Positions 21,382 to 53,039 of a stretch of 64,000 nucleotides of DNA are shown one piece after another. Position numbers and translations under genes: made by a program. The DNA is taken from the NCBI GenBank assembly GCA_012932295.1, contig JAAONU010000016.1, positions 13,184,111-13,248,110 on the forward strand. Reading direction: 5' to 3'. Position 1 is the stretch's first letter, and each line of letters begins with the position of its first letter. The notes under the pieces are model-generated. The model worked only from the letters and a program-made list of their open reading frames with translations, made no database searches and had not been told where the DNA came from. The DNA is from Cyclina sinensis (Eukaryota; Mollusca; Bivalvia; Venerida; Veneridae).

Positions 21382-21394
21382 TATTCATAAACAT
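21382..21394. repeat. SINE target-site duplication, plus-strand right copy
   Basis: TATTCATAAACAT, the partner of 21154-21166 with one mismatch. Confidence 0.8.
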
Positions 21395-22169: not shown

Positions 22170-22520
22170 TTGAAAGCACACACTATCTACATGATGTACT
22201 GATAATGGTTGAAGCCTCACTACATTCATGTCCTGCTGTTACTGACTAAAGCACACACTATCTACATGATGTACTGATTCTGACTGAAGCACACACTATC
22301 TACATGATGCACTGATACTGACTAAAGCACACACTATCTACATGATGCACTGATACTGACTAAAGCACACACTATCTACATGATGCACCGATACTGACTA
22401 AAGCACACACTATCTACATGATGTACTGATACTGACTAAAGCACACACTATCTACATGATGTACTGATACTGACTGAAGCATTCACTATCTACATGATAT
22501 ACTGATCTAGTCAGTATCAA
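22170..22520 (+). repeat. 38-bp satellite array, second location
   Basis: About nine monomers reading agcacacactatctac then atgatgtactgatactgact, the same family as 17335-17965 and in the orientation of its right half. A degenerate reversed piece follows to about 22615 (cagtatcaatact, gtagatagtgagtgctcaagtcag). It lies immediately outside the right arm. Confidence 0.9.
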
Positions 22521-27841: not shown

Positions 27842-28300
27842 ATGGTATTTAAGGTCCAGATCTCAAATACCAAGTGTATTGGTATTGAAGGTCCAGATCT
27901 CAAATACCAAGTGTATTGGTATTTTAGGTCCAGATCTCAAATACCAAGTGTATTGGCATTTTAAGTCTAGATATCAAATACCAAGTGTATTGGTATTGAA
28001 GGTCCAGATCTCAAATACCAAGTGTATTGGTATTTAAGGTCCAGATCTCAAATACCAAGTGTATTGGTATTTTAGGTCTAGATATCAAATACCAAGTGTA
28101 TTGGCATTTAAGGTCCAGATCTCAAATACCAAGTATATTGGCATTTTAGGTCCAGATCTCAAATACCAAGTGTATTGGTATTTTAGGTCTAGATACCAAA
28201 TACCAAGTGTATTGGTATTTTAGGTCCAGATCTCAAATACCAAATGTATTGGTATTTTAGGTCCAGATCCTAAGTACCAAGTGGTATTGGTATTTTAGGT
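27842..28300 (+). repeat. 37-bp satellite array, about 12 copies (U1)
   Basis: Monomers contain ggtccagatctcaaatacca and gtgtattggtatttta. Each carries TTGGTATTT and AAATACCAA, an inverted pair of nine bases that allows a hairpin. Copies differ by a few bases. The same array has about 4 copies in U2 (51500-51630) and about 9 in U3 (59745-60057). Confidence 0.92.
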
Positions 28301-28480
28301 TTTTGCTGATTACAGGTACAATATACATTATAAGGATTTAATCACTATGAATGTTTTTTTAACATCAGTGTTAGACAAAAAAAATAATTTTGCATTCTAA
28401 CACTCATTACTTTATACACCTATAACGTCTGGTTACAATAAAAAATCATTTGAATAAAAAGATGTCTAGACATTTATGAT

Positions 28481-28645
28481 TCACAGTTTTAATGGGAGAA
28501 CATACAAAGCCTCCTTTGTACTCGTCTGACCGAACTCCACATACAAAATGTACTGTGACTTTCCACATGGGTTAATGTCTGTGTCTGTAGCCCTTCTGTC
28601 CAAACACATCACATAGTTAATGTCAATTTCCTCCCTCAATGCAGT
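28481..28645 (-). pseudogene. 54-codon remnant, possibly the tail of a LINE protein
   Basis: This minus-strand frame ends in a stop at 28481 and contains TDTDINPCGK then QYILYVEFGQTS. Its composition is unlike the surrounding AT-rich chance frames. The INPCG word recalls the D-P-C-G-T-P tail that many invertebrate LINE proteins have, but the match is short. The U3 copy keeps much the same frame, while U2 has a frameshift upstream and a stop in the second half. It is most likely a dead coding fragment. Confidence 0.35.
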
Positions 28646-29442
28646 TTAAATGATAAAAAATGTGTTCACGTTTTCTTCAGAACCAATTCTCTAAGGACAT
28701 TTCATGTTCCTTTTTTTGTTTCAAGTCAAAAACACTTTCTCTATATAAAGCTCCAGAATAAACCATTCGCAAATCAAAATGTATTTGCCAATGGGAAGAC
28801 AATAAATGGTTCCTGGCGGCTGGTCGAGTCATTGATTTTTATAACAAGAGATTAATATATTTTATATCGAACCTTTAAGAAAACTGATACGATACTACAA
28901 CTACAACAACAGCCACCGCCACTTGTTACATATGTGCTTCTAATGTCAACCACATTTCGGACAAACACATTTGTACAAAATCTGTTACAAACTTGTTTTA
29001 TCTGTGGTCTAACAAAGCCCTATTAAGACAAGGGAAATTATGATAAGCCTATTTTGTGGAGCTGACCCTAGGACTGTATTTTTTTTTTCATTCGAAAATT
29101 TCTTTACACAAACCGATCACAAAATATCATCGAAATAACAGTGACAAAAAAGCGACGACTATAAATGCTCAACAGGGCCAAAGTGGCTCTGAATGCAATG
29201 AAAGGGGATTATAAGTGACATACGATAACCAAGTGTTCATAAAGTTTCAACCCATATAAAAAATCAAGATATTGACCCGACTTATGTGTAGTGTTTTTAC
29301 AATCAACTTTTTATTAAAGTCTTAATTTGTCTTGATCGAAAGAGAAACTGACTCAAGACAAATCTCGTTGGAGGACAAAAACCTAGTAGAGTGAGACTAC
29401 TCCTTAAATCAATTGACAAATTCATAGCACTTTTAAATGAAT

Positions 29443-29495
29443 TTACCCCCCCCCCCATCCACACCGCCCATCCCCTCACCCCACCCCCACACACA
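29443..29495. repeat. C-rich tract shared by all units (U1)
   Basis: A C homopolymer followed by CCC/CAC-rich sequence. It recurs at 52777-52830 in U2 and 61767-61812 in U3 with different run lengths. On the minus strand it is G-rich. Lengths of such runs are prone to sequencing error. Confidence 0.8.
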
Positions 29496-29689
29496 ATTTA
29501 AAAAAATATCAACTTAAACGGTAGCGGAAAACATAAAAAATGGACCATCTAGTCCAAAGAAACAGAACTGATGTCTCTTTTGGCTATGTACGTTCATCTG
29601 TCTGTAAAAGTACTGAAGTTTGTGTTCTGTATAATTGTATGATTGGTTGTTCTGTAGTTTACAACTATATAGTGTGTATTTAGCTAGAA

Positions 29690-30735
29690 AAATTTAGTCT
29701 GATAAGACTCTATCAAAGTTTTCCTTCCCTAGAATTATATCTGATAAAGACCAGTTGATAGAAATATTTCGGAATTTTGGTTTTAGCCATTTTTTTAACC
29801 TCTCCCCGGTAAGATTCTGTATGTTGACAGCTTGTGAGTTTCAATTAGGTTATTAAAGAAACAACACAAACTGTTATTTTTTATTTTCATGTTTTTGTAA
29901 AACATGGTTTATAGCTAGAATTCTGCGGTTAGTTTTGTATTGAAACCATTGTAAATTATAGCCTTTTGTTATCTTAAAGAGCAATCTGTAGATATATTCC
30001 CAATTAAAATTATTTGTTAGGTTTAGTTCTTGGCTCCATTTTATGTTAGATGCAGGACATAAATATTTCTTCATCCCTTCGTTTGCTTGTTAGTTATTTT
30101 AGTTATTAAAGGTTGTAATGGTGTGTTTTCTTTTTTATTACCATGTGGAAAAGTCGAACGTACTAGAAATCTTTTGAAAGACTATAACACTATGGTATTG
30201 CAAACAGTTTGTGTTTTCTTGAGAAATTATTGAAGGAAAGGAAGTTTTCTTCCTATTTCAAAACTTGTTCACTAAAATCATTCCAGCTTTAACCAATCTT
30301 ATAAAAACAGAAGCTATTTTAAAACTAGAATAATACTACACTGGCAAAGATTAGAATTAACTCCAGTTTCTTATGTGTTGCCTTATTGCATTAACCGACT
30401 TAAAACTTCTCTCCGCAACTGATTTTGAACTATTTGAATCCTATTCTTTAAAAAGTCATCCTCAATCTTATTGCAGTCTAATACACAAAGGTACATTGTT
30501 CGTATGAAATTAAGATATTTAGTACTGTAAAGACCAAGTCTCTTAATCCATGTCAGTTTTAAAGAAGTCATAAATAACTCAACATCGATCATTCTTATTC
30601 CTCCATAATCATAATTCTGTATTTTACCTTGTCTCTTGGTTTTGTCTGGTCAACCTTTCCAAAGAAATTTAAAAAGATTTACTCTGAATTGTTTTTGTAA
30701 TTCTAATCTTGGATATGATAAGCTAAAGAAAACAA
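29690..30735 (-). pseudogene. LINE 3' half remnant, L1/Tx1-like (U1)
   Basis: In minus-strand order one sees FKFLWKG (about 30650-30670), NYDYGGIRMIDVELF then LKLTWIKRLG (about 30610-30540), a stretch open to about 30383, and further on WEYIYRLLFKITK with LQWFQYKTNRRIL (about 30000-29900). These are the connection and C-terminal blocks that follow the RT in L1/Tx1-type LINEs. Stops and frameshifts separate them. The catalytic RT part is missing from this unit. Relative to U2 a short deletion has removed the HLFFDC block. This is my motif reading; the clade needs a database search. Confidence 0.75.
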
Positions 30736-32259
30736 TGATTTAACTTGGATTAAGTTAATTAATATGTTTGATGATTTTGTTCAAGTAAATTATCAAAATC
30801 AACATATTTAAACATGCACTAGTTATTGGTATTTTAAGGACACTGGGTAACTTTAGTATTTACTAGATAACAGCAATGCAGTAACACTGTCTGCATAAAC
30901 GTGCACATGTAGTAAGAGCATACCGGCCAGATACATTTCTCTGGAAATTTATTTGGATATTGTTTTGACATCCAAACACATAGAAATGCTTGGTTCGTTT
31001 AAACATTATACAAATCGCAAGTATTAACCCGATATATACAAAATATTGCATTTAGTTTCAACATTTTAGCTGCATTAATAAACTGTTATCATCATACACG
31101 AAAATATTTTGTCCAGTGGATAGGAATGAGTCACAAAATTAATGTGACGGTTTAGAGGCACAATTTGGGCCTGCAATCATGATGGTCGGGCCGCGGGGGA
31201 ACGCAAACAAGAGCCGATACCGTGCACTTGAAATTATTTATTACAGCATTGCTTCAAGAAACTTTTGGAAACTGTATTTTTTTTCAATCAGTTTATAAAT
31301 ATCAAGAAGGATTTTTCTGGTTGTAGTGTTCTGCTGTTAGAAGAAAACTCTTTGCCCAACCGACTTGAATGAAGCAGCTGAATCTTTAAGTCTATTCTCC
31401 TGAAATATATAATTGGTCTAGTGTATATGTATGCGAAAGGGCCGAATTCCAAACTATATAACCGAGTGCCTTGCGATGCGAACCATATTATAAATAATCA
31501 AATGTCGCAATGTGAAACCAAAACGAATAACTGGGGCGGGTAAATCAACGTTAAGGGAAATATAATAAAAGACAGGTGTATTTTCTGGTAAAAAGCGGTT
31601 TTACTGGACTAAACGCATTGATAAATTGGAAGAAATGCTTTCATGACAACTATCTCGGTGCCATAAATCTGAAAATCCCAGAGCGCAAACATAAACACTA
31701 ATGTCACAGTTAAAACCGTTCGCAGCTATAACGAAATGCAGATAAAATCGGTTAACATCCGCAAATGTCGATGATTACATGTTGTTCGCATGTTTAAAAC
31801 TTTCAAAGATCAGTTCTCATGCGCTCATGCAAAATTCTTTACCGTTTCTAGTTTGAAGACATATTTTTTCCTCGTCTGTTGCGGAAATTACACAGGTTTT
31901 CTTTGAAGAACTTGTAGATTTTACACATGCATCGGCCTTATGTCCTCACAGAACATTAGGTTATTTTATTGTCTACTAGACAACAATTTATATTTAAGAC
32001 AATAATACTGTCTGAATAGACATACACATTTAGGTAAAACATACACAGAAAGAACAGTTATTTACAAGGTGATTTCAGCAAATTTTTCTCATTTGAACGT
32101 TTGAATATTTTTTATTTGTAAAGAAGTAAGCACTTTTTGTCCCTGTTTTATTCCTGATATATACAAATCATAGCATTTTATTTTCTTCAACATTTAAATT
32201 GCAATTAGAAAATGAAATTACCGTAAACGGAAACTTACCCAGTGGATAGGGATGAGCAA

Positions 32260-32263
32260 TTTA
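32260..32263. repeat. Foldback target duplication, left (TTTA)
   Basis: TTTA precedes the foldback and recurs at 46660-46663. The empty site in U3 has it once (55589-55592). The exact edge could shift by one or two bases. Confidence 0.7.
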
Positions 32264-32300
32264 TAAGTTTTAATGAACGTGAAGTTGGCACATAGATCGC
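32264..32300 (+). repeat. Foldback terminal inverted repeat, left
   Basis: The outermost bases are TAAGTT, then TTAATGAACGTGAAGTTGG, then CACATAGATCGCA. From TTAATG inward this matches the reverse complement of 46623-46657. The first few bases do not match the right end, so the exact terminus is uncertain. Confidence 0.85.
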
Positions 32301-35250
32301 AGCTCTACATCTAGCTCTGCGATCTTATATCATTGCAGAGCTGGGTCGCAGCTCTACATCCAGCTCTGCAATATCATATCATTGCAGAGCTGGGTCGCAG
32401 CTATACATCCAGCTCTGCGATCTTATATCATTGCAGAGCTGGGTCGCAGCTCTACATCCAGCTCTGCAATCTTATATCATTGCAGAGCTGGGTCGCAGCT
32501 ATACATCCAGCTCTGCGATCTTATATCATTGCAGAGCTGGGTCGCAGCTCTACATCCAGCTCTGCAATCTTATATCATTGCAGAGCTGGGTCGCAGCTAT
32601 ACATCCAGCTCTGCAATCTTATATAATTGCACAGCACGGTCGTAGATCTACATCTAGCTCTGCAATCTTATATCATTGCAGAGCTGGGTCGCAGTTCTAC
32701 ATCCAGCTCTACAATCTTATATCATTGCAGACCTGGGTCGCAGCTCTACACCCAGCTCTGCAATCTTATATAATTACAGACCTAGGTCGCAGCTCTACAT
32801 CCAGCTCTGCAGAGCTGGGTCGCAGCTCTACATCCAGCTCTGCAATCTTATATCATTGCAGAGCTGGGTGGCAGCTCTACATCTAGCTCTGCAATCTTAT
32901 AATTGCATAGCTTGGTCGTAGATCTACATCTAGCTCTGAAATCTTATATCATTGCAGAGCTGGGTCGCAGCTCTACATCCAGCTCTGCAATCTTATATCA
33001 TTGCAGAGCTGGGTCGCAGCTCTACATCCAGCTCTGCAATCTAATATCATTGCAGAGCTGGGTGGCAGCTCTACATCTAGCTCTGCAATCTTATAATTGC
33101 AAAGCTGGGTCGCAGCTCTACATCCAGCTCTGCAATCTTATATCATTGCAGAGCTGGGTCGCAGCTATACATCCAGCTCTGCGATCTTGTATCATTGCAG
33201 AGCTGGGTCGCAGCTCTACATCCAGCTCTGCAATCTTATATCATTGCAGAGCTGGGTCGCAGCTATACATCCAGCTCTGCAATCTTATATAATTGCACAG
33301 CACGGTCGTAGATCTACATCTAGCTCTGCAATCTTATATCATTGCAGAGCTGGGTCGCAGTTCTACATCCAGCTCTACAATCTTATATCATTGCAGACCT
33401 GGGTCGCAGCTCTACAACCAGCTCTGCAATCTTATATCATTGCAGAGCTGGGTCGCAGCTCTACACCCAGCTCTGCAATCATTGCAGAGCTGGGTCGTAG
33501 ATCTACATCCAGCTCTGCAAACTTATATCATTGCAGAGCTGGGTCGCAGCTAAACATCCAGCTCTGCAATCTAATATCATTGCAGAGCTGGGTCGCAGAC
33601 TTACATCCAACAATGCAATCTTATATAATTACAGACCTAGGTCGCAGCTCTACATCCAGCTCTGCAGAGCTGGGTCGCAGCTCTACATCCAGCTCTGCAA
33701 TCTTATATCATTGCAGAGCTGGGTGGCAGCTCTACATCCAGCTCTGCAATCTAATATCATTGCAGAGCTGGGTCGCAGCTCTACATCTAGCTCTGCAATC
33801 TTATAATTGCAGAGCTGGGTCGCAGCTCTACATCCAGCTCTGCAATCTTATATCATTGCAGAGCTGGGTCGCAGCTATACATCCAGCTCTGCAATCTTAT
33901 ATCACTGCACAGCACGGTCGTAGATCTACATCTAGCTCTGCAATCTTATATCATTGCAGAGCTGGGTCGCAGCTCTACATCCAGCTCTGCAATCTTATAT
34001 AATTGCAGAGCTGGGTCGTAGATTTGCATCTAGCTCTGCAATCTTATATCATTGCAGAGCTGTCTCGTAGATCTACATCTAGCTCTGCAATCTTATATAA
34101 TTGCAGAGCTGGGTCGCAGCTATACACTCAGCTCTGCAATCTTATATCATTGCACAGCACGGTCGTAGATCTACATCTAGCTCTGCAATCTTATACCATT
34201 GCAGAGCTGGGTCGCAGCTCTACATCCAGCTCTGCAATCTTATATCATTGCAGACCTAGGTCGCAGCTCTACACCCAGCTCTTCAATCTTATATCATTGC
34301 AGAGCTGGGTCGTAGATCTACATCCAGCTCTGCAAACTTATATCATTGCAGAGCTGGGTCGCACTAAACATCCAGCTCTGCAATCTTATATCATTGCAGA
34401 GCTGGGTCGCAGACTTACATCCAACTATGCAATCTTATATAATTACACACCTAGGTCGCAGCTCTACATCCAGCTCTGCAGAGCTGGGTCGCAGCTCTAC
34501 ATCCAGCTCTGCAATCTTATATCATTGCAGAGCTGGGTCGCAGCTATACATCCAGCTCTGCAATCTTATATCATTGCACAGCACGGTTGCAGCTCTACAT
34601 CCAGCTCTGCAATCTTATATCATTGCAGACCTGGGTCGTAGATCTACATGTAGCTCTGCAATCTTATATCATTGCAGACCTGCGTCGCAGCTCTACATCT
34701 AGCTCTGCAATCTTATATCATTGCAGAGCTGGGTCGCAGCTCTACATCCAGCTCTGCAAATCATTGCATAGGTTGGTCGTATATCTACATATAGCTCTGC
34801 AATCTTATATCATTGTATAGCTTGGTCGTAGATCTACAACTAGCTCTGCAATCTTATATCATTGCAGAGCTGGGTCGGAGCTCTACATTCAGGTCTGCAA
34901 TCTTATATCATTGCAGAGCTGGTTAGCAGCTCTACATCCATGTCTGCAATCTTATATCATTGCAGAGCTGGGTGGCAGCTCTACATCCAGCTCTGCAATC
35001 TTATATCATTGCAGAGCTTGGTCGCAGCTCTACATCCAGCTCTGCAATCTTATATCATTGTATAGCACGGTCGCATCTCTACATACATGTAGCTCTGCAA
35101 TCTTATATCATTGCAGAGCTGGGTCGCAGCTCTACATCCAGCTCTGCATTCTTATATCATTGCAGAGCTGGATCATAGATCGACATCTAGCTCTGCATTA
35201 TTATTATCATTGCAAAGCTGATTCCCAGCTCTTAATCTAGGCTATCGACA
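32298..35250 (+). repeat. 49-bp satellite, left arm, about 60 monomers
   Basis: The consensus monomer is ATTGCAGAGCTGG, a 15-base loop beginning GTCGCAGCTC, then CCAGCTCTGCAAT, then CTTATATC (13+15+13+8 bases). The two 13-base parts are perfect inverse copies, so each monomer is a hairpin. Variant monomers (CACAGCACGGTCG, CAGACCTAGGTCG, shortened units lacking CTTATATC) recur in blocks, which shows higher-order duplication, for example with a shift of about 666 bases between about 32530 and 33200. Most monomers have no stop in any of the three plus-strand frames, so long open frames appear, up to 301 codons at 33097-34002. They are a by-product of the repeat. Confidence 0.95.
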
Positions 35251-35560
35251 TCTAAATTTGCATTCTATGATTAATACAGATCTGGATGTAATATCTAAAT
35301 ATAGTACACTAATCTTGTATCTTTGCTCTAGGAGAACTGTGTCGTAGTTCGACATCTGGTTGCAATTTAACATAAGTGCAGAGGTTGATCGTTTATAGAT
35401 ATCTAGCTCTGTTATCTAACATAAGTGTGGAGCTGGGTCGTAGATCGACATCTAGGTCTGCAATCTTGTTTCACTGCAGTGCTGGATCTCAGCTTTACAT
35501 CTAGATCTGCAGTCTTTTTTTTTTAATTGCAGTGCTGGGTCGTAGACAACGAGCTCTTCA
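35251..35560 (+). repeat. Decayed inner edge of the left satellite arm
   Basis: Diverged monomers are still visible through words such as gagctgggtcgtagatcgacatct and gtgctgggtcgtaga, with rising substitution toward the centre. Older, less homogenised monomers at an array edge are expected for satellites kept alike by unequal exchange. Confidence 0.7.
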
Positions 35561-36459
35561 AACATTTGTTTTTACTTCTTTTTACATATTCATTATTCAG
35601 TTTCAATTAGGTCTGCAAAATTTTAATGGTATTTCAGTATATCTTCACTGTAGAGCGTTATCTTAATGACGTTTCAGATGAGCATAGTTATTTGACCAAA
35701 TAGATTTGTAATGGTGTTATTATTATACAGAAACAAAAACTGGAAGGATAGAACTTGTTTTAGTTTTGTCTACTTTTCATGTACAGTCATGTAGGTCTAT
35801 TTACACTTTTGGCGGCTCTTGCAAAGAAATGTTTGATTTTCTCATATCTGCAAGGGGAACTTTGATCTTTTCCCTGCTTTCTTGCTACCTTGTCACTACG
35901 GTGGAAAAGAGGTTATACATGTTTAAAAGTAATGTATTCCGTATAAGAAAAACATAAACATTGGATTCGTTTTTTTATCTCGATCCAAAGAAATGCGACG
36001 TAGTATATCGTAGTACATTTAACGAGCAACTGAGTCGTGTTGAAACGACATGCAAAGTCAAGTGCATTATTTTCAAGATTACAATAAGATGAGAGACAGA
36101 TGCGCTCAAGAAGGAATGCATTAAAACAAGAAGTATACACTAGCTATGGCTATGAATACAAAGTGCGTAAAAGATTAGTTTTGATGCAAGCATCAAAAGC
36201 GGCGCGCATTTTTTTAAAGTATGGTTTAAATTCACCAAAAAATATTATAGTGTTTGTTTTTGATGCTATGAACAAAATTATTTACTGCTGGGTTGTAACA
36301 TTTTTGACAGAATTCATGAACTGTTTGTTTTATTGGTTGTTTATGATTTTTCCTTTATATCTAACCAGCAAGTATCAATTTCTCCACAAATGAATGACTT
36401 TCTCCACTGTCTCTAACATGAGTCTGAGACAGTGGTGAGAGACGAATGACCTTAAGGCA

Positions 36460-36555
36460 AAACGTTCGAGATCAATCGTCACAGAGAAATTTACACTCAT
36501 TCCAGTGATCGAACCTTTGATTCTTAATACAGTAATGTACCAATTGAGCTCAGCA
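36460..36555 (-). mobile_element. Possible tRNA-derived SINE remnant in the foldback centre
   Basis: The minus strand reads TGAGCTCAATTGGTA (A-box-like, plus 36538-36552) and GGTTCGATCAC (B-box-like, plus 36505-36515). The spacing of about 25 bases is shorter than in a tRNA, so a deletion or a chance match must be allowed for. No clear target duplication is visible. Confidence 0.4.
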
Positions 36556-36761
36556 GGTGGGCATCTGTCTCAAAGGAAAATGTAAGAGATCCACGAACGT
36601 TTAACTATCAAATAAAGAAGGGTCACCAAATTACACTTCTCGTTGTGCTTTATGATAAAGGTATTTACTGGTATGATGGGCTAGCAGGATGTCTAGGCGA
36701 TCTGCCAAAGAATTTCAGTGGCGAATGGTTTCCAATTCATGCACTGTATTGTGAAATATGA
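36528..36761 (+). pseudogene. Unrecognised coding-like fragment in the foldback centre
   Basis: The frame is open from 36528 and ends at a TGA at 36759-36761. From 36558 its 67 residues include NVRDPRTFNYQIKKGHQ, LYDKGIYWYDGLAGC and GEWFPIHALYC. Residue use is balanced and rich in W, Y, G and D, unlike the K/I/F/S-rich chance frames nearby. There is no ATG start, but a CAG splice-acceptor-like word stands at 36551-36556. It may be the last exon of a captured host gene or of a protein once encoded by the element. I do not recognise the family. Confidence 0.35.
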
Positions 36762-38389
36762 TCAACAAGCATAGCAATGATGTACAGCTTTCGGTACCCG
36801 TTTTGTTTGTTGATTGTTGGCCTCAGTTGAAACTCTGACAAGTAAACATTTGGGTAACGTTAGGTATACTATGTCTCCAGGCATAAAAGAAAAACAGCCC
36901 TTATTTAATTTCGTACTAGCTGGTCGCTAATGTTTTTATTATTGACATATATTTCATTTGTTGCGTTGTAATGCATTGTACCTTCATCCCCCACCCGGTC
37001 GGGACCATTTTGTTTTCAGAATTTTTCGTATTTGTCCCTTGTTTCATCGGTTGCATTAAAAAGCATTGTGACACTTCCACATCCCCTTCCAAACCTTTCT
37101 CACTCCCGGATATTTTCATTTGCCTCATAGTATATTTTTTTAATTATTACTTTTGCATTGTCATCCATGGCGACTACCCCTCAAACTTCCCCCATACGCC
37201 CCATCCCCCCAAAAAAATATGTTCCTCTGTTTCTGTCCTGCATTGAAATCTGTAACTATTCGTCTACCGAGCAGTTTAAGAAAGCAAATCTTATATATAG
37301 ATGCATTCATTCTCAAAACGTTTTTCTGGCTTTGTTGATTATTATATGTTGAATTTGTAAAATAATTTTGGGGAATTAAATGTGTATATTTTCCTCTGGA
37401 CAACTATATTTTTAATTTTATTACCTACTTTTAGTTTCTTAAATTCGATTTTATACTCTTGCAATCGTATCAAAAGCTAAATGCCACGTTTGCTGCGTAA
37501 TTCGCATTTGCATTCAGTTATTCATTTCGTTCGATATTTTTTTTTAACTTTTGAAGTTTATTTTCATTTTGTAACTGAAAAGGTAAGGAAGACAAAGGGG
37601 ACCCGTCTAAAACTTTTGTTGTTTTCCGGTCATTATCAGTATTTTTATCGTGTCACGTAGTTATAAAAGACGTAAAGCCACTCAGTCTATGAATTTGGTA
37701 TTACAATATACATAAATAATCATTTAGTTTATGATAATAAAGTTTAAATAATGTGAATAACGAGTTTTCGAAATTTCTGAGGTTAAGTCTGACTAACTTC
37801 GAATTGTGATACTCAATGGCCATACAAAGACTCTGTTCAGTAAAGAACGTAAGTAATCCTTAAAAGAAGTCTGGCGGCTCAAGAAATAAAACTTGTTACC
37901 ACCTTTAAGTGATAGCTCTCATATAATTATAAAGCAGGTGCGTTCGAATACTTATTCTCATGACTTATCAACAGATTTGTTGGGGGTCGGGGTTAGGGCA
38001 GCAGTCATCAACATGCCAAAATAAACATACGACGTAAATATGAAAATGCCTTTGTCCGCAATTAACATGTGTAAAAATGCTTGAACATTTAAGGCTCTTA
38101 GCCTATTCACACACCATACGTGTTGCGATAGACTTTTTGTCCATCCGTAGAATGTAGAAAGAAAAAGAAAGAAATGCAAAAAGTTTATTTACTACAATAT
38201 GTTTGTAACAACACGGATATAGATTGTTACAAAACTCTTATCAACAAGAGCCATATTAACATGTGTTTGCTTATTGGAAGAATGTATATGTAGCAGCAGC
38301 GCAACATAATTCAATTTTGGTAATGATAACTAATGGCTGTAGTAATTACAGATTTGAAAGCTAAAGGTCAATAACTGAAAAATCATGCA

Positions 38390-38840
38390 TAGTAGCGTTA
38401 TCATTCTTGTGCGCTGCACTCCTCCACAGTGAGATCTTTCAACCTATGAAGTTTCAAGTAGATACCTGCAATACTTTTGAGATAAGCTCGGGACAAAAAG
38501 TATTAAAAATAACAAAGGGCACTAAATCAAACATTATAAAAAGCAGAGTTATCATTCTTGCGCACAACATTCCTCCTCAATAAGATCTATCCACCTATAA
38601 AGTTTCATGTGGACATCTCAAAGACATTTTGAGTTCTGCTCCACTCAGGTGAAAATTAAGTATGAAAAAACAAAGATTATTAAGGGTAAAGTTATCACTC
38701 TTCTACACTGCACACCTCCTGAGTGAGCTCTATCCACATATTATGATGTTTCATGTTGATAACTCAAAGTCTTTTTAAGTAATGCTTTGAAAAATAACAA
38801 AAGGCAATAACTGAAAAAAACTATGCAGATCGAGTGATGC
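38390..38840 (+). repeat. Three tandem copies of an about 145-bp degenerate repeat
   Basis: Words recur three times in order: gttatcattctt, ctcctc, gatct or gctct then atccacctat, aagtttcatgt, then ataacaaa. Copies start near 38395, 38550 and 38690. They directly adjoin the right satellite arm. Confidence 0.75.
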
Positions 38841-38844
38841 AATG

Positions 38845-41800
38845 AAAAAGATTGCAGAGCTAGATGGAGAAATGCGACCCAGCTCTGCAATGATTTAAGA
38901 TTGCATAGCTGGATGTAAGTCTGCGACCCAGCTATGCAATGATATAAGATTGCAGAGCTGGATGTAGAGCTGCGACCCAGCTCTGCAATTATAAGATTGC
39001 AGAGCTTGATGTAGAGCTGCGACCTAGCTCTGTAATTATATAAGATTGCAGAGCTGGATGTTAGTCTGCGACCAAGCTTTGCAATGATATAAGATTACAG
39101 AGCTAGTTGTAGATCTACGACCAAGCTATACAATGATATAAGATTGCAGAGCTAGATGTAGATATACGACCCAGCTATGTCATGATTTGCAGAGCTGGAT
39201 GTAGAGCTGCGACCCAGCTCTGCAATGATATAAGATTGCAGAGATAGATGTAGATCTACGACCCAGCTCTGCAATGATATAAGATTGCAGAGCTGGATGT
39301 AGAGCTGCGACCCAGCTCTGCAATGATAAAATATTGTAGAGCTGGATGTAGAGCTGCGACCCAGCTATGCAATGATATAAGATAGCAGAGCTGGATGTAG
39401 AGCTGCGACCCAGCTCTGCAATGATATAAGATTGCAGAGCTGGATGTAAAGCTGCGACCCAGCTCTGTAATGATATAAGATCGCAGAGCTGGATGTAGAG
39501 CTGCGACCCAGCTCTGCAATGATATAAGATTGCAGAGATGGATGTAGATCTACGACCCAGCTATGCAATGATATTAGATTGCAGAGCTGGATGTAGAGCT
39601 GCGACCCAGCTCTGCAATGATATAAGATTGTAGAGCTGGATGTAGAGCTGCGACCCAGCTATGCAATGATATAAGATTGCAGAGCTGGATGTAAATCTGT
39701 AATTATATAAGATTGCATAGCTGGATGTAAGTCTGCGACCCAGCTATGCAATGATATAAGATTTCAGAGCTGGATGTCGAGTTGCGACCTAGCTCTGCAA
39801 TGATATAAGATTGCAGAGCTAGATGTAGAGCTGCGACCAAGCTCTGCAATTATAAGATTGCAGAGCTGGATGTAGAGCTGCGACCCAGCTATGCAATGAT
39901 ATAAGATCGCAGAGCTGGATGTAGAGCTGCAAACCAGCTCTGCAATGATATAAGATTGCAGAGCTGGATGTAGAGCTGAGACCCAGCTCTGCAATGATAT
40001 AAGATTGCAGAGCTAGATGTAGAGCTGCGACCCAGCTCTGCAATGATATAAGATTGCAGAGCTGGATGTAGTTCTGTAATTATATAAGATTGCATAGCCG
40101 GATGTAAGTCTGCGACCCAGCTCTGCAATGATATAAGGTTGCAGAGCTGGATGTTGTTCTGTAATTATATAAGATTGCATAGCTGGATGTAAGTCTGCGA
40201 CCCAGCTATGCAATGATATAAGATTGCAGAGCTGGATGTCGAGCTGCGACCCAGGTCTGCAATGATATAAGATTGCAGAGCTAGATCTAGAGCTGCGACC
40301 AAGCTCTGCAATTATAAGATTGCAGAGCTGGATGTAGAGCTGCGACCCAGCTCTGCAATAATATAAGATCGCAGAGCTGGATGTAGAGCTGCGACCCAGC
40401 TCTGCAATGATATAAGATTGCAGAGCTGGATGTAGGTCTGTAATTATATAAGATTGCATAGCTGGATGTAAGTCTGCGAACCAGCTCTGCAATGATATAA
40501 GATTGCAGAGCTGGATGTAGATCTACGACCCAGCTCTGCAATGATATATGATTGCAGAGCTAGATGTAGAGCTGAGACCCAGCTCTAGAATGAAAGAAAA
40601 TTGCAGAGCTGGATGTAGAGCTGCGACCCAGCTCTGCAATGATATATGAGTGCAGAGTTAGATGTAGATCTTCGACCAAGCTATGCAAAGATATAAGATT
40701 GCAGAGCTAGATGTAGAGATGCGACCTAGCTCTGTAATTATATAAGATTGCAGAGCTGGATGTTAGTCTGCGACCAAGCTCTGCAATGATATAAGATTGC
40801 AGAGCTAGTTGTAGATCTATGACCAAGCTATACAATGATATAAGATTGCAGCGCTAGATGTAGATATACGACCCAGCTATGCAATAATTTGCAGAGCTTG
40901 ATGTAGACCTGCGTATCCAGCTCTGCAATGATATAAGATTTCAGAGCTGGATGTTGAGCTGCGACCCAGCTCTGCAATAATATTAGATTGCAGAGCTGGA
41001 TGTAGATCTACGACCAAGCTATGCAATGATTTAAATTGCAGAGCTGGATGTAGAGCTGCGACCCAGCTCTGCAATGATATATGATTGCAGAGTTAGATGT
41101 AGATCTTCGACCAAGCCATGCAAAGATATAAGATTGCAGAGCTGGATGTAGAGATGCGACCTAGCTCTGTAATTATATAAGATTCCAGAGCTGGATGTTA
41201 GTCTGCGACCAAGCTCTGCAATGATATAAGATTGCAGAGCTAGTTGTAGATCTATGACCAAGCTATACAATAATATAAGATTGCAGAGCTAGATGTAGAT
41301 ATACGACCCAGCTCTGCAATAATTTGCAGAGCTTGATGTAGAGCTGCGACTTCAGCTCTGCAATGATATAAGATTTCAGAGCTAGATGTAGAGCTGCGAC
41401 CCAGGTCTGCAATGATATAAGATCGCAGAGCTGGATGTAGAGCTGCGGCCCAGGTCTGCAATGATATAAGATTGCAGAGCTGGATGTAGAGCTGCGACCC
41501 AGCTCTGCAATGATATAAGATTGCAGAACTGGATGTAGAGCTGCGACCCAGCTCTGCAATGATATAAGATTGCAGAGCTGGATGTAGAGCTGCGACCCAG
41601 CTCTGCAATGATATAAGATTGCAGAGCTAGTTGTAGATCTATGACCAAGCTATACAATAATATAAGATTGCAGAGCTAGATGTAGATATACGACCCAGCT
41701 CTGCAATAATTTGCAGAGCTTGATGTAGAGCTGCGACTCCAGCTCTGCAATGATATAAGATTTCAGAGCTAGATGTAGAGCTGCGACCCAGGTCTGCAAT

Positions 41801-44800
41801 GATATAAGATCGCAGAGCTGGATGTAGAGCTGCGGCCCAGGTCTGCAATGATATAAGATTGCAGAGCTGGATGTAGAGCTGCGACCCAGCTCTGCAATGA
41901 TATAAGATTGCAGAACTGGATGTAGAGCTGCGACCCAGCTTTGCAATGATATAAGATTGCAGAGCTGGATGTAGAGCTGCGACCCAGCTCTGCAATGATA
42001 TAAGATTTCAGAGCTAGATGTAGATCTACGACCAAGCTATGCAATGATATTAGATTGCAGAGGTGGATGTAGAGCTGCGACCCAGCTCTGCAATGATATA
42101 TGATTGCAGAGCTGGATGTAGGTCTGTAATGATATGAGATTGCATAGCTGGATGTAAGTCTGCGACCCAGCTATGCAATGATATAAGATTGCAGAGCTGG
42201 ATGTAGAGCTGTGACCCAGCTCTGCAATGATATAAGATTGCAGAGCTGGATGTAGTTCTGTAATTATATAAGATTGCATAGCCGGATGTAAGTCTGCGAC
42301 CCAGCTCTGCAATGATATAAGATTGCAGAGATGGATGTTGTTCTGTAATTATATAAGATTGCATAGCTGGATGTTAGTCTGCGACCAAGCTTTGAAATGA
42401 TTTAAGATTACAGAGCTAGTTGTAGATCTACGACCAAGCTATACAATGATATAAGATTGCAGAGCTAGATGTAGATATACGACCCAGCTATGTCATGATT
42501 TGCAGAACTGGATGTAGAGCTGCGACCCAGCTCTGCAATGATATAAGATTGCAGAGATGGATGTAGATCTACGACCCAGCTATGCAATGATATTAGATTG
42601 CAGAGCTGGATGTAGAGCTGCGACCCAGCTCTGCAATGATATAAGATTGTAGAGCTGGATGTAGAGCTGCGACCCAGCTATGCAATGATATAAGATTGCA
42701 GAGCTGGATGTAAATCTGTAATTATATAAGAGTGCATAGCTGGATGTAAGTCTGCGACCCAGCTATGCAATGATATAAGATTTCAGAGCTGGATGTCGAG
42801 TTGCGACCCAGCTCTGCAATGATATAAGATTGCAGAGCTAGATGTAGAGCTGCGACCAAGCTCTGCAATTATAAGATTGCAGAGCTGGATGTAGAGCTGC
42901 GACCCAGCTATGCAATGATATAAGATCGCAGAGATATAAGGATGTAGAGCTGCAAACCAGCTCTGCAATGATATAAGATTGCAGAGCTGGATGTAGAGCT
43001 GAGACCCAGCTCTGCAATGATATAAGATTGCAGAGCTGGATGTAGAGCTGCGACCCAGCTCTGCAATAATATAAGATTGCAGAGCTGAATGTAGTTCTGT
43101 AATTATATAAGATTGCATAGCCGGATGTAAGTCTCCGACCCAGCTCTGCAATGATATAAGGTTGCAGAGCTGGATGTTGTTCTGTAATTATATAAGATTG
43201 CATAGCTGGATGTAAGTCTGCGACCCAGCTATGCAATGATATAAGATTGCAGAGCTGGATGTCGAGCTGCGACCCAGGTCTGCAATGATATAAGATTGCA
43301 GAGCTAGATGTAGAGCTGCGACCAAGCTCTGCAATTATAAGATTGCAGAGCTGGATGTAGAGCTGCGACCCAGCTCTGCAATAATATAAGATCGCAGAGC
43401 TGGATGTAGAGCTGCGACCCAGCTCTGCAATGATATAAGATTGCAGAGCTGGATGTAGGTCTGTAATTATATAAGATTGCATAGCTGGATGTAAGTCTGC
43501 GACCCAGCTCTGCAATGATATAAGATTGCAGAGCTGGATGTAGATCTACGACCCAGCTCTGCAATGATATATGATTGCAGAGCTAGATGTAGAGCTGAGA
43601 CCCAGCTCTACAATGAAAGAAAATTGCAGAGCTGGATGTAGAGCTGCGACCCAGCTCTGCAATGATATATGAGTGCAGAGTTAGATGTAGATCTTCGACC
43701 AAGCTATGCAAAGATATAAGATTGCAGAGCTGGATGTAGAGATGCGACCTAGCTCTGTAATTATATAAGATTGCAGAGCTGGATGTTAGTCTGCGACCAA
43801 GCTCTGCAATGATATAAGATTGCAGAGCTAGTTGTAGATCTATGACCAAGCTATACAATGATATAAGATTGCAGCGCTAGATGTAGATATACGACCCAGC
43901 TATGCAATAATTTGCAGAGCTTGATGTAGACCTGCGACTCCAGCTCTGCAATGATATAAGATTTCAGAGCTGGATGTTGAGCTGCGACCCAGCTCTGCAA
44001 TAATATTAGATTGCAGAGTTGGATGTAGATCTACAACCAAGCTATGCAATGATTTAAATTGCAGGGCTGGATGTAGAGCTGCAACCCAGCTCTGCAATGA
44101 TATATGATTGCAGAGTTAGATGTAGATCTTCGACCAAGCTATGCAAAGATATAAGATTGCAGAGCTGGATGTAGAGATGCGACCTAGCTCTGTAATTATA
44201 TAAGATTGCAGAGCTGGATGTTAGTCTTCGACCAAGCTCTGCAATGATATAAGATTGCAGAGCTAGTTGTAGATCTATGACCAAGCTATACAATAATATA
44301 AGAGCTAGATGTAGATATACGACCCAGCTCTGCAATAATTTGCAGAGCTTGATGTAGAGCTGCGACTCCAGCTCTGCAATGATATAAGATTTCAGAGCTA
44401 GATGTAGAGCTGCGACCCAGGTCTGCAATGATATAAGATCGCAGAGCTGGATGTAGAGCTGCGGCCTAGGTCTGCAATGATATAAGATTGCAGAGCTGGA
44501 TGTAGAGCTGCGAACCAGCTCTGCAATGATATAAGATTGCAGAGCTGGATGTAGAGCTGCGACCCAGCTCTGCAATGATATAAGATTGCAGAGCTGGATG
44601 TAGAGCTGCGACCCAGCTCTGCAATGATATAAGATTTCAGAGCTAGATGTAGATCTACGACCAAGCTATGCAATGATATTAGATTGCAGAGATGGATGTA
44701 GAGCTGCGACCCAGCTCTGCAATGATATATGATTGCAGAGCTGGATGTAGGTCTGTAATGATATGAGATTGCATAGCTGGATGTAAGTCTGCGACCCAGC

Positions 44801-46626
44801 TATGCAATGATATAAGATTGCAGAGCTGGATGTAGAGCTGTGACCCAGCTCTGCAATGATATAAGATTGCAGAGCTAGATGTAGAGCTGCGACCCAGCTC
44901 TGCAGTTATAAGATTGCAGAGCTAGATGTAGAGCTGCGACCTAGCTCTGTAATTATATAAGATTGCAGAGCTGGATGTTAGTCTGCGACCAAGCTTTGCA
45001 ATGATATAAGATTACAGAGCTAGTTGTAGATCTGCGACCAAGCTATACAATGATATAGGATTGCAGAGCTAGATGTAGATATACGACCCAGCTATGCAAT
45101 GATTTGCAGAGCTGGATGTAGAGCTGCGACTCCAGCTCTGCAATGATGTAAGATTTAAAAGCTAGATGTAGAGCTGCGACCCAGGTCTGCAATGATATAA
45201 GATCGCAGAGCTGGAGTATAGCTGCGACCCAGCTCTGCAATGATATAAGATTGCAGAGCTGGATGTAGAGCTGCGACCCAGCTCTGCAATGATATAAGAT
45301 TTCAGAGCTGGATGTGGAGCTGCGACCCAGCTCTGCAATGATATAAGATTTCAGAGCTAGATGTAGATCTACGACCCAGCTCTGCAATGATATAAGATTG
45401 CAGAGCTGGATGTAGATCTACGACCCAGCTCTGCAATGATATAAGATTGCAGAGCTGGATGTAGAGCTGCGACCCAGCTATGCAATGATATAAGATTGCA
45501 GAGCTGGATGTAGAGCTGCGACCCAGCTCTGCAATGATATAAGATTGCAGAGCTGGATGTAGTTCTGTAATAATATAAGATTGCAGAGCTGGATGTAAGT
45601 CTGCGACTCAGCTCTGCAATGATATAAGATTGCAGAGCTGGATGTAGTTCTGTAATTATATAAGATTGCATAGCTGGATGTAAGTCTGCGACCCAGCTAT
45701 GCAATGATATAAGATTTCAGAGCTGGATGTCGAGCTGCGACCCAGCTCTGCAATGATATAAGATTGCATGGCTAGATGTAGAGCTGCGACCAAGCTCTGC
45801 AATTATAAGATTGCAGAGCTGGATGTAAAGCTGCGACCCAGCTCTGCAATGATATAAGATCGCAGATCTGGATGTAAAGCTGCGACCCAGCTCTGCAATG
45901 ATATAAGATTGCAGAGCTGGATGTAGAGCTGCGACCCAGCTCTGCAATGATATAAGATTGCAGAGCTGGATGTAGAACTGCGACCCAGCTCTGCAATGAT
46001 ATAAGATTGCAGAGCTGGATGTAGTTCTGTAATTATATAAGATTGCATAGCCGGATGTAAGTCTGCGACCCAGCTCTGCAATGATATAAGATTGCAGAGC
46101 TGGATGTAGTTCTGTAATTATATAAGATTGCATAGCTGGATGTAAGTCTGCGACCCAGCTATGCAATGATATAAGATTGCAGAGCTGGATGTCGTTCTGC
46201 GACCCAGCTCTGCAATGATATAAGATTTCAGAGCTAAATGTAGAGCTGCGACCCAGCTCTGCAATGATATAAGATCGCAGAGCTGGATGTAGAGCTGCGA
46301 CCCAGCTCTGCAATGATATAAGATTGCAGAGCTGGATGTAGGTCTGTAATTATATAAGATTGCATAGCTGGATGTAAGTCTGCGACCCAGGTCTGCAATG
46401 ATATAAGATTGCAGAGCTGGATGTAGAGCTGTGACCCAGCTCTGCAATGACTTAAGATTGCAGAGCTGAATGTAGAGCTGCGACCCAGCTCTGCAATGAT
46501 ATAAGATTGCAGAGCTGGATGTAGAGCTGCGACCCAGCTCTGCAATGATGTAAGATTGCAGAGCTGGATGTAGAGCTGCGACCCAGCTCTGCAATGATAT
46601 AAGATCGCAGAGCTAGATGTAGAGGT
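38845..46626 (-). repeat. 49-bp satellite, right arm, about 158 monomers
   Basis: Same monomer as the left arm, in reverse orientation, about 7.8 kb against about 3.0 kb on the left. The outermost part is the cleanest and the inner edge near 38845-39200 the most variable. Variant monomers (accaagctatacaatg, tttgcagagcttgatgt, ttctgtaattatataag) recur in fixed order, which reveals higher-order copies: about 39600-41650 against 42620-44650 with a shift near 3023 bases, and 41252-41608 against 41639-41995 with a shift of 387. Open frames of up to 225 codons on the minus strand are repeat by-products. Confidence 0.95.
39600..44650 (-). repeat. Higher-order duplication inside the right arm (about 3.02-kb shift)
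   Basis: Rare variant monomers occur in the same order at positions 3017-3023 bases apart: 40287 and 43304, 40877 and 43900, about 41268 and 44291. The copies differ by single bases and by small losses, for example a shortened monomer at 44298. A separate nearby 387-bp tandem pair (41252-41995) lies between them. Confidence 0.8.
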
Positions 46627-46659
46627 GCGATCTATGTGCCAACTTCACGTTCATTAAGT
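46623..46659 (-). repeat. Foldback terminal inverted repeat, right
   Basis: Reverse complement of the left end: TGCGATCTATGTGCC, then AACTTCACGTTCATTAA, then GT at the edge. Confidence 0.85.
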
Positions 46660-46663
46660 TTTA
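46660..46663. repeat. Foldback target duplication, right (TTTA)
   Basis: Partner of 32260-32263. Confidence 0.7.
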
Positions 46664-47509
46664 AGGGTTACGCGATACATGGAATTAATCGGGTATTACT
46701 AATTTTGCAGAAAAGCTTGGTTAAGGCAGAAATTTACAAAATATTATTTTGAAGACTGTCTTTAAACATTTTGTAGTTTCGTGTCCCTTGAAATATTTAA
46801 GGATGACATTCAGAAGCTGGCCACTTTCAGACTTGCTTCAAATTACAAATTACATTTCAGGGTATTTGATCATGGAAGTTTGTGACCAAAACCGTTACAG
46901 TGCTTTTGAAATTACTAATTATATCATCGCACGCCTATTATCGTACATTTGTGTTCAGTTGTCAGATAAGGGCTTCCTTGAACTGAAATAAGTAAATATC
47001 GTTACTTACTGTTTAATATCAGCATAAGGTCCATAAACACGGGCCATGTCAGCGCTACTTGGATAACACAGTTGTCTTTTGTTACTTAGGTATTAAAGTA
47101 AAATAAAAAAAGGAGTGGACGCCACTAATGTTTTAAATCCAGCTATGTGATTGCAACATCAAGACTAATAGACACGGAAAAGGATAATTATAAATAGCGG
47201 TTCAAACTTCCAAAGAATACGTCGTACTTAATTTCAAAATAATTTTTATGCTATAAAATTTAGGTAAATGTTAAGATTATTGCTTTGGATAAAAATAGAA
47301 GTATTTTGGTAATAAAATATTTTCATTTTGAATGCGTAGTAAAATAGTATATTGGTATGGTATAATAAAATGTAATAATATAAGAAATCACAAAGGCAAA
47401 CCTATTGAAACAGTCATCTGGCAGACATGGCCAGAAACTTTTGCACACGGACGGCACCGCATCAATATCACCAAAAATACTGAACTACTTGGGTACTTTA
47501 TTGTCTGTA

Positions 47510-50328: not shown

Positions 50329-51499
50329 TTAATGAAACAATATGAATTGTTCTTCCCGATTGTCTAATACCTCAAAACCTTTTTGAAAAAAAAAACGTTA
50401 ATACCATATCTTAAATATGAATTATAGACGATTTTCTTGGTTTCGAAGCTGTAAGGCATTCAGTGAAATGTTTTAAACTAAACATGTCGTTAGTAGGAGA
50501 AAGATTATGTTAAAAAAAGTGACAGCGTTTTCAGTAAAATGCAAAGGAACAGGAATGGTTTCATTAATTACAAATATTCTCAAATAAGCGCAGTCATAAA
50601 ATGAAAACCGTTGAAACTAAATTTAATTTAAATTGGATTTAATTTTCTTGGATTTATGACCGTAACGGCTATTTCGAACGCGGCATCTGTTCGCCAAAAT
50701 GTCTGTTCGAGTAAAAAGAATGAAGACAGTTTCCGTTTTATCAGTTTGCGTTTTTGACTGTTTTGCTAGAATAAATTAGCAAAAACACAAATTAGGTTTC
50801 AAAAATGTCCATAACGTAAAATTTCACCGCAAAATCATCTTAATTTAAAGAGAGTAATCTGGAAGCCACTCAGATGTCATTTACTTCCATTGGGGAAAGC
50901 CTTAAGGAAGTACTTGGTGATCCATAGATTCTCCACTGAACAGTACGTATTTCACATTCATGTTGCCTCTGTTACTAACTCTTTAAAATCTAGAAAATTA
51001 TATTAACAATAAAATAATGAGTCATCTTCAACAGAAAAGCTAAATTACATTAACTCGTATACTTCAGACATATTATAAATAAATATAGTGATATCAAACC
51101 CTACTCGAGTCGTTTTTTTTTTTGTTTTTTTTTTTTTTAATGTTTTTTGCACTTTTTTTCTACTGTTGTATTTATTGTATAAATTATTTTTATTAGGTTC
51201 TTTCTTCTTCTTCTATATATTTTCAAGGTTTTATTTCAACTTACAAATGAAGATTATTTTATCAACCATTTCAATTTTTAAAGTTCTTCATAACTACTGG
51301 ACAAACTTCTTTGATTAATAATGTAAAGCCCTTGTGATATGTTTTGCTGCCAGCTTTGTCATATTTCCCTCGTCATAAAGCGGTTGGGGCAAACAGGTAC
51401 CTTGTTTATGAAATCGTATGTGTGTTTATACAACAAGGTTCTTGTTTGTGTGCAGAATATAAGAAATACATATTCTCTTCTATTCACTTATTACAAAGA

Positions 51500-51630
51500 C
51501 CTCAAATACCAAGTGTATTGGTATCTTAGGTCTAGATCTCAAATACCAAGTGTTTTGTATCTTAGGTCCAGATCTCAAATACCAAGTGTATTGGTATTTT
51601 AGGTCTAGATCTCAAATACCAAGTGCTGAT
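51500..51630 (+). repeat. 37-bp satellite array, about 4 copies (U2)
   Basis: Same monomer and same place as 27842-28300 in U1, contracted to about four copies. Confidence 0.9.
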
Positions 51631-53039
51631 TACAGGTACAATATACATTATAAGGATTTAATCACTATGAATGTTTTAACATCAGTGTAAGACAAAAAGA
51701 AAAAATTGAATTCTGACACTCACTTTATATACCTATAACGTCCGGTTACAATAAAAGATCGTTTTGAATAAAAAGACGTCTAGACATTTATGTTTCACAG
51801 TTTTAATGGGAGAACATACAAAGCCTCCTATGTACTCGTCTGACCGAACTCCACATACAAAATGTACTGTGGCTTTCCACATGGGTTAATGTCTGTATCT
51901 GTAGTCCTTCTGTCCAAACACATTAGCATAGTTAATGTCAATTTCCTGCCACAAGGCAGTTTAAATGATAAAAAATGTGTTCACGTTTTCTTCAGAACCA
52001 ATTCTCTAAAGACATTTCATGTTCATTTTTTTTTGTTTCAAGTCAAAAACACTTTCTCTATATAAACCTGCAGAATAAACCATTCGCAAATCAAAATTTA
52101 TTTGCCAATGGGAAGACAATAAATGGTTCCTGGCGGCTGGTCGAGTCTTTGATTTTATAACAAGAGATTAATATATTTTATATGGAACCTTTAAGAAAAC
52201 TGATACGATACCACAACTACGACAACAACTACCACCACCTTTTACATATATGCTTCTTATGTCAACCCACATTTTGGACAAACACATTTGTTATATATTA
52301 CATTTGTACAAAATCTGTTACAAGTTTGTTATATCTGTGGTCTAACAAAGCTCTATTAAGACAAGGGAAATTATGATTAGCCTATTTTGTAGAGCTGACC
52401 TTAGGACTGTCTTTTTTTTCATTCGAAAAGTTCTTTACACAAACCGATCACAAAATAACATCTAAATAACAGTGACAAAAAAGCGACGACTATAAATGCT
52501 CAACAGGGCCAAAGTGGCTCTGAATGCAATGAAAGGGGATTATAAGTGACATACGATAACCAAGTGTTCATAAAGTTTCAACCCCATATAAAAAACAAAG
52601 ATATTGACCCGACTTATATGTAGAGTTTTTACAATCAACTTTTTATTAAAGTCTTAATTTGTCTTGATCGAAAGAGAAACTGACTCAAGACAAATCTCGT
52701 TGGAGGACAAAAACCTAGTAGAGTGAGACTACTCCTTAAATCAAATGACAAATTGATAGCACTTTTAAATGAATTTACCCCCCCCCCCCATCCACACCGC
52801 CCCTCCCCTCACCCCACCCCCACACACAATTAAAAAGAATATCAACTTAAACGGTAGCGGAAAACATAAAAAATGGACCATTTATTCCAAAGAAACAGAG
52901 CTGATGTATCTTTTGGCTATGTACGTTCATCTCTGTCTGTAAAAGTACTGAAGTTTGTGTGGAACTTCTGTATAATTGTATGATTGGTAGTTCTGAAGTT
53001 TACAACGATATAGTGTGTATTTAGCTAGAAAAAATAGCC

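Follow-up and report, generated by a model that had tools for sequence, protein, structure and literature searches.

The window, which is the whole 64,000-nt stretch analyzed here, comes from Cyclina sinensis (GCA_012932295.1, contig JAAONU010000016.1, positions 13,184,111-13,248,110, forward strand) and contains one insertion of 14,382 bp at 32273-46654, with boundaries placed by comparison with family copies. The features of the locus are as follows.

32264-32272, +, left copy of the 9-bp target-site duplication TAAGTTTTA, identical to 46655-46663
32273-46654, no strand assigned, foldback element of 14,382 bp, both ends of which start with ATGAACGTGAAGTTGGCACATAGATCG
32273-32299, +, left 27-bp inverted terminal tip, sequence ATGAACGTGAAGTTGGCACATAGATCG
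32297-35232, +, left arm, ~61 copies of a 49-bp satellite, with degraded copies on to ~35560
35563-38832, +, centre of type A-C-D, ~3.3 kb (coordinates approximate), no coding capacity found
38142-38191, +, unoccupied target of the sister foldback nested in copy L014, with one copy of AAGAAAAAG
38838-46630, -, right arm, ~148 copies of the 49-bp satellite
39489-44876, -, block duplication in the right arm: 39489-39914/42508-42933 (99.5%), 39917-41280/42940-44303 (98.8%) and 41672-42247/44301-44876 (99.1%)
41212-41620/41599-42007, -, second duplication in the right arm, 387-bp offset (99.5%)
46628-46654, -, right 27-bp inverted terminal tip, conserved across family ends
46655-46663, +, right copy of the duplication TAAGTTTTA, identical to the left copy
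55583-55600, +, empty site in the neighbouring tandem unit; the 9-bp target is missing

The mirrored ends claimed in a first-pass annotation of this DNA were confirmed, with identical inverted copies of TTAATGAACGTGAAGTTGG occurring free of mismatches at 32270-32288 (+) and 46639-46657 (-) only; the chance level at up to three mismatches was a shuffle mean of 0.03. Satellite arms in opposite orientation and a centre of about 3.3 kb, also described there, were both recovered as 49-bp arrays and unique sequence. The TTTA described there on both sides was rejected as the target duplication in favour of the 9 bp of TAAGTTTTA, because TTTA is simply where the two flank alignments overlap and family copies show 9 bp. 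A 6-bp TTTAAG duplication with a slipped TA was dropped, again because the family shows 9 bp.

The terminal 31 bases, allowing up to three mismatches, gave 224 matches in the 903-Mb host assembly (reversed control, 0). Among the 100 places listed, end pairs within 40 kb were facing in 20 cases, facing apart in none and in the same direction in 3. From a sample biased toward the best matches to the left end of the 14.4-kb element, 20 loci were fetched; these ends were found in 20/20, both ends in 18/20, and satellite on both strands, i.e., inverted arms, in 20/20. Across 40 ends (20 elements), each of the 27 tip positions agreed in 97% or more. Exact 9-bp duplications flanked 17 of the 21 complete elements (0.26-17.1 kb), namely, 16/20 plus a 17.1-kb copy, and 20,000 re-pairings gave no exact match. 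In the remaining four of the 20 the match was imperfect: L010 has one mismatch, L027 has two and L014 has six, and in L019 the duplication is displaced by one base. The first-pass annotation had staked its reading on other loci with the same inverted ends, and many exist in the assembly. It had also called the element giant; the foldback does measure 14,382 bp, but its size is not unusual for the family, because the largest copy, with its exact 9-bp duplication, reaches 17.1 kb. Exact tip and monomer patterns each had 0 matches in viral contigs.

Long terminal inverted repeats (TIRs) made of short tandem repeats, together with multiple dispersed insertions bearing target-site duplications, are characteristics of foldback (FB-type) elements. 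Rolling-circle elements are not known to make target duplications. Inverted ends that are symmetric, arms in opposite orientation and duplications of 9 bp, as observed here, do not fit such elements, with their rolling-circle ends and no duplication, and we find it very hard to credit that this is a Helentron/pearl-like element, the type carrying satellite-like repeats in oysters, even though such elements are described as carrying tandem repeats in marine molluscs (PMC7492417).

Comparison with the next tandem unit aligned the left flank (28154-32263) with 51497-55592 at 93.9% and the right flank (46660-47502) with 55589-56432 at 98.1%. The uninterrupted site previously reported at 55585-55600 is present once, as the single occurrence of GAGCAATTTAAGGGTTAC at 55583-55600, but it lacks the 9-bp target. 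The next unit is empty, yet it is not an intact pre-insertion site, because the 9 bases of TAAGTTTTA are missing there; this target was lost or never there, and a second indel must therefore be assumed. A simple insertion does not predict a next unit without the target, which counts against it. The assertion that a single insertion could be shown cleanly thus holds for the single insertion but not for a clean empty site. Conceivably, the next unit formerly held the element and TTTA-TTTA repair removed it with both duplications, leaving exactly GAGCAATTTAAGGG; TTTA precedes the left duplication and closes the right one, so that this repeat would bound such a deletion, and the sequence fits. An unrelated indel right on the target is also unlikely a priori, because gaps of at least 5 bp between the units are few (7 in 3,911 left-flank columns and 0 in 840 right-flank columns). 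However, TTTA occurring twice at a distance of 9 bp also explains a simple 9-bp slippage deletion, and the insertion seems to postdate the divergence of the units, since the 14.4-kb element and its nearest sampled relatives diverge by 0.65-0.9% and the two units, near the site, by roughly 1.5-2%. We therefore regard former occupancy of the next unit as quite improbable.

Within each 49-bp monomer lies a hairpin of 34 bases whose stem is 13 bp long. In the 14.4-kb element, one inversion point fits 196/196 oriented monomer spacers. The same was true of all monomers in 19 of the 21 elements, the exceptions being L014 (37/40) and L027 (116/118). Arm lengths vary between family copies, and block duplications measuring 250 bp or more were present in 13/21 elements; here, the 3.0-kb block duplication in the right arm accounts for part of the element's giant size. 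Monomer identity was 0.90 whether monomers were compared inside an arm, across the two arms of an element or across elements (41 of 42 arms were used, and one with two monomers was dropped), and homogenised arms were therefore rejected. The two arms of the 14.4-kb element align at ~85% identity in many different registers, among which the end-anchored, mirror register is not the best, so that a recent mirror duplication of one arm from the other was rejected.

A palindrome made locally, by inverted duplication of a tandem array with no transposon involved, would also place satellite arrays in opposite orientation, as inversion or breakage-fusion can do, and the block duplications do reflect ongoing array turnover. 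It is contradicted by the genome-wide copies, which share their ends and centre and bear 9-bp duplications at numerous unrelated loci, and by a mirror register that matches no better than the others; we consider such an origin extremely improbable.

Centres range in size from ~1.3 to 4.7 kb across the family, and four small copies have none. Four of the 16 other centres (L015, L018, L021 and L028) aligned to that of the 14.4-kb element, over the full length of the latter, at 98.5-98.8%. Centre divergence was 1.0% among 13 copies and 1.45% among 14, and the family is therefore young. Frames of at least 90 aa were listed for 17 centres, and the Pfam scan covered the five stop-to-stop frames of the 14.4-kb element's centre; four had no match and one had a sub-threshold match (DUF1158, 15.7 bits; cut-off, 25), so that a coding centre was rejected for these frames. 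Pfam searches of 20 window frames gave weak sub-threshold matches only, and an Rfam search gave 0 matches.

The single insertion and the genome-wide inverted ends support the original proposal of a giant non-autonomous foldback with satellite arms. Very probably, the element belongs to a family of non-autonomous foldback DNA transposons that is young and dispersed, is presumably mobilised by a transposase acting in trans, and has arms that would turn over block-wise. Because the arms are mirror-image arrays of the 49-base hairpin satellite, that satellite travels round the genome as part of a transposon.

The element is of a known kind, represented by FB, Tetris, Rehavkus and Tm1, with arms several times longer than in the relatives compared. 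FB elements of Drosophila melanogaster have long inverted repeats built from short tandem repeats, a likeness in described structure. Tetris of Drosophila virilis is described as a non-autonomous foldback with tandem-repeat inverted repeats, a variable middle and a satellite link; its repeats are 220 bp long, its TIRs reach 1,735 bp, its duplications measure 8-10 bp and three of its copies are structurally complete (PMC4079207), whereas here the repeats are 49 bp, the arms far longer, the duplications 9 bp and the complete copies at least 20. Tm1 of root-knot nematodes, a Mutator/foldback element, shares variable-length composite TIRs, 9-bp duplications and MITE-like copies, but its elements span 0.17-2.5 kb, with a transposase encoded by one copy (PMC3169594), in contrast to the 0.26-17.1 kb and the absence of a detected transposase here. 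Rehavkus shares the 9-bp duplications and the minisatellite beside the ends, and Rehavkus-1_TC of Tribolium is reported as a 9.5-kb element with the 164-bp satellite TCsat23 in its inverted termini (PMC10218199, PMC6446971); the monomer here is 49 bp, and the frames scanned showed neither a transposase nor a PHD finger.

Duplications measure 8-11 bp in Mutator-group elements and 9 bp in Rehavkus (PMC6446971). The family duplicates typically 9 bp, within the Mutator (MULE) range, and has a minisatellite adjoining its TIRs as in Rehavkus; this combination of 9-bp duplication and minisatellite-bearing ends suggests Mutator/Rehavkus-type mobilisation in trans. MULE domains were located at 66 places in the genome; when 65 of these were set against 100 of the 224 ends, none lay within 91 kb of an end (nearest, 91.6 kb). 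Four of the 66 loci were fetched, none of which carries main-family ends, and all were rejected as autonomous partners: L037 carries 166-bp TIRs that differ in sequence, the similar MULEs L035 and L036 show a single weak tip match apiece (8/25 mismatches) with no partner, and L038 has no tip match of note. The 17.1-kb copy, whose centre aligns to known centre segments, and L033, a 5.8-kb sister copy with no frame above 130 aa, were likewise rejected, and a genome-wide search with B2, a centre segment absent from the 14.4-kb element, yielded no transposase. That no transposase was found leaves some room for an enzyme of another superfamily, e.g., P-like as in Galileo of Drosophila, which shows that the foldback form arises in other superfamilies. 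Galileo, of the P superfamily, has internally repetitive TIRs that differ in repeat number within one copy, but these TIRs reach only ~1.26 kb and, as described, it has no 49-bp satellite (PMC3573991). The 9-bp duplications of 17/21 copies fit the Mutator group and Rehavkus (PMC6446971), which makes another superfamily somewhat unlikely.

Under Mutator/Rehavkus-type mobilisation, a transposase of that group, encoded elsewhere, would recognise the tips, and perhaps also the repeats of the arms, excise the element and insert it with a 9-bp stagger. Multi-monomer blocks would be duplicated or deleted, through unequal exchange or repair slippage, and the arms would lengthen or shorten without monomer-by-monomer homogenisation. 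The 3.0-kb block duplication probably brought the right arm of the 14.4-kb element to 7.8 kb.

A sister foldback family has the TIR ATTAGAGTGAAGTT.GC, tips related to those of the main family, and arms of AGCTCT/AGAGCT hairpin repeats that differ in sequence from the 49-bp satellite. It has an exact duplication in L034; those of L033 and of the copy nested within L014 contain one mismatch each. The target of the nested insertion is single-copy in the 14.4-kb element and in 11/12 other copies examined, and a better 9-bp empty site than the next unit therefore lies inside the 14.4-kb element itself. Because the monomer holds a 34-base hairpin and the sister family has different hairpin arms, the arms may be a working part and not baggage, with hairpin arrays recruiting transposase or promoting arm growth, although we judge this unlikely. 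If true, transposition and block duplication together would make up a device for dispersing and lengthening satellite arrays genome-wide. Two related families with different satellites would allow the role of arm repeats in transposition to be tested.

Satellite spread as transposon cargo, and array growth after insertion, have usually been argued from old, broken copies. The present family has ~1% divergence, intact copies of 0.26-17 kb, insertion sites flagged by 9-bp duplications and a unique centre that serves as an independent clock for each copy; arm growth is therefore traceable copy by copy and, with several individuals, would be traceable insertion by insertion.

The window (C8:13184111-13248110 of the 903-Mb assembly, which has 154 contigs) contains a foldback insertion that has the 9-mer TAAGTTTTA on each side, and both ends of the element start with ATGAACGTGAAGTTGGCACATAGATCG. 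The satellite arms do lie in opposite orientation, as the first-pass annotation had proposed, with 196 of 196 monomer spacers fitting a single inversion point. The 49-bp monomer consensus folds into a hairpin whose stem is perfect over 13 bp and whose loop has 8 bases.

Features of the 14.4-kb foldback element
32264-32272 and 46655-46663, 9-bp target duplication TAAGTTTTA
32273-46654, foldback insertion, 14,382 bp
32297-35232 and 38838-46630, 49-bp satellite arrays in opposite orientation
about 35563-38832, non-satellite centre

Elsewhere in the window, a second, smaller foldback-like structure occurs at 17339-17947 (inverted match 17223-18111), with about 9 copies of a 38-bp repeat one way and 7 the other, in mirror orientation; this repeat also forms a lone array at 22173-22506. 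A large imperfect inverted repeat spans 10982-22141.

Segments of the imperfect inverted repeat
14161-15642 with 18351-19798, 77%
13135-13816 with 19807-20515, 74%
11538-11829 with 20790-21068
10982-11310 with 21775-22141

The 14.4-kb element is surrounded by tandem units, each roughly 8-9 kb long (24436-62624, about 88-98% identity); 37-bp minisatellites occupy 27843-28300, 51497-51625, and 59740-60055. Aligned with the next unit, the left flank is 93.9% identical over 4.2 kb and the right flank 98.1% identical over 0.84 kb, and the TTTA noted earlier on both sides is the overlap of these two alignments. When 55200-55900 was used as a genome query, 13 matches were returned, and only the filled and empty units covered the site and both flanks. 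The next unit, described earlier as holding the empty site, is indeed empty, with GAGCAATTTAAGGGTTAC unbroken at 55583-55600; it is short of exactly nine bases relative to the expected pre-insertion site (GAGCAATTTA-TAAGTTTTA-AGGGTTAC, with the 9-bp duplication removed), and therefore is not an intact target. The missing bases would be given by a 9-bp deletion between TTTA repeats, by a nine-base difference predating the insertion, or by a former element lost via repair between TTTA repeats; since gaps of at least 5 bp between the filled and empty units are rare (7 across 3,911 alignment columns of the left flank and none across 840 of the right), each explanation costs one extra event. The units differ by about 1.5-2% near the site and the element differs from its nearest sampled relatives by 0.65-0.9%, a comparison that favours, though no more than suggestively, an insertion younger than the split of the units.

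The same inverted ends are found at other loci, as had been anticipated. The left end, used to query the host assembly, had 263 matches, with scores for 40 of the 837 candidates, and the 31-base terminal pattern, allowing at most 3 mismatches, occurred 118 times forward and 106 times in reverse (224 matches; reversed control, 0). Among 100 places listed, neighbouring end pairs at most 40 kb apart comprised 20 facing, 0 facing apart, and 3 in the same direction, and the 14.4-kb copy was the second longest of the facing pairs. Our structural sample of 20 loci is biased to close relatives because it was chosen as the best matches to the left end of this element; satellite was present on both strands in all 20 and both ends were seen in 18. 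Complete elements in the sample measured 776-9,295 bp, and two copies outside it came to about 0.26 kb and 17,095 bp.

The family inserts with a 9-bp stagger. Exact 9-bp duplications flanked 16 of 20 elements with both ends, or 17 of 21 with the 17.1-kb copy included (ATAAATTAG on both sides), and 20,000 re-pairings yielded no exact match between different elements. The inexact cases were L010 (one mismatch), L027 (two), L014 (six), and L019 (shifted by one base). The copy of about 0.26 kb (L029, C5:33125050-33125450), which has an exact 9-bp duplication, sits between mirror-image host flanks (each with GAATTCTCAACTTTCC...), as though it had landed in a hairpin or in some other element with inverted repeats.

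A nested insertion in the L014 element shows 9-bp insertion more cleanly than the tandem unit does. Its centre holds a 3,031-bp foldback of a sister family, with ends ATTAGA(G/A)TGAAGTTGGCTAAGAGATCGGC, flanked by AAGAAAACG / AAGAAAAAG; a single AAGAAAAAG is found at the corresponding site in the 14.4-kb element and in 11 of 12 other copies examined. The sister terminal pattern occurs 96 times in the host assembly (control, 0), with 24 facing end pairs, 0 facing apart, and 6 in the same direction. Duplications flank sister copies L034 (exact, GTGCTATTT) and L033 (single mismatch), and the arms of this family consist of 42/55/97-bp repeats around AGAGCT/AGCTCT. Eight sister-family ends (GAAGTTAGCTACGAGATCGGC) cluster within 0.9 Mb at C17:33699237-34567291; they are divided six to two between the strands, and no two of them face each other at a distance of 40 kb or less.

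The centres of 16 other copies could be aligned to that of the 14.4-kb element, with pairwise divergence of 1.0% among 13 copies that share one segment and 1.45% among 14 that share another. Four copies (L015, L018, L021, and L028) match it at full length, and the remaining centres have deletions or are of a second type with the first 1.1 kb in common; four small copies (L010, L011, L019, and L026) consist of arms without a centre. About 257 bp (query 75-331) of centre segment B2 (L025:3341-4409) recurs with 78-80% identity at 26 further places among those listed and is probably an older repeat.

Transposition would rely on a cut-and-paste transposase supplied in trans. The host assembly has 66 MULE-domain places, and we found no transposase with these ends: all 65 such places compared lay more than 91 kb from any of the 100 listed ends, and family ends were absent from four MULE loci examined. 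The 9-bp duplication and satellite-bearing ends match what PMC6446971 and PMC10218199 describe for Rehavkus and other Mutator-group elements, and the family is a candidate member of Rehavkus.

Monomer identity was nearly equal within arms (0.901), between arms of one element (0.900), and between elements (0.898-0.899), so local homogenisation is absent. Multi-monomer duplications were common: in 13 of 21 elements, a block of 250 bp or more had a partner elsewhere in its own arm or element with an identity of 97.7% or higher. The right arm of the 14.4-kb element contains a block of about 3.0 kb duplicated at 98.8-99.5%, itself holding a smaller duplication with a 387-bp offset; minus duplications, this arm would be about 4.4 kb. 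Judged from these sequence comparisons, the arms appear to grow by duplicating blocks of many monomers rather than by local homogenisation.

Foldbacks with tandem-repeat arms and links to satellites are known, with Tetris (PMC4079207), Rehavkus-1_TC (PMC10218199), Tm1 (PMC3169594), and Galileo (PMC3573991) all of this kind. The 49-bp satellite and these ends were not seen in literature found by topic rather than by sequence. Arms reach up to 1.7 kb in Tetris and about 1.26 kb in Galileo, as described in those sources, whereas here the 14.4-kb copy has arms of up to 7.8 kb and the 17.1-kb copy of up to about 8.5 kb. We file the element as representing a new family whose kind is known but whose arms are unusually long.
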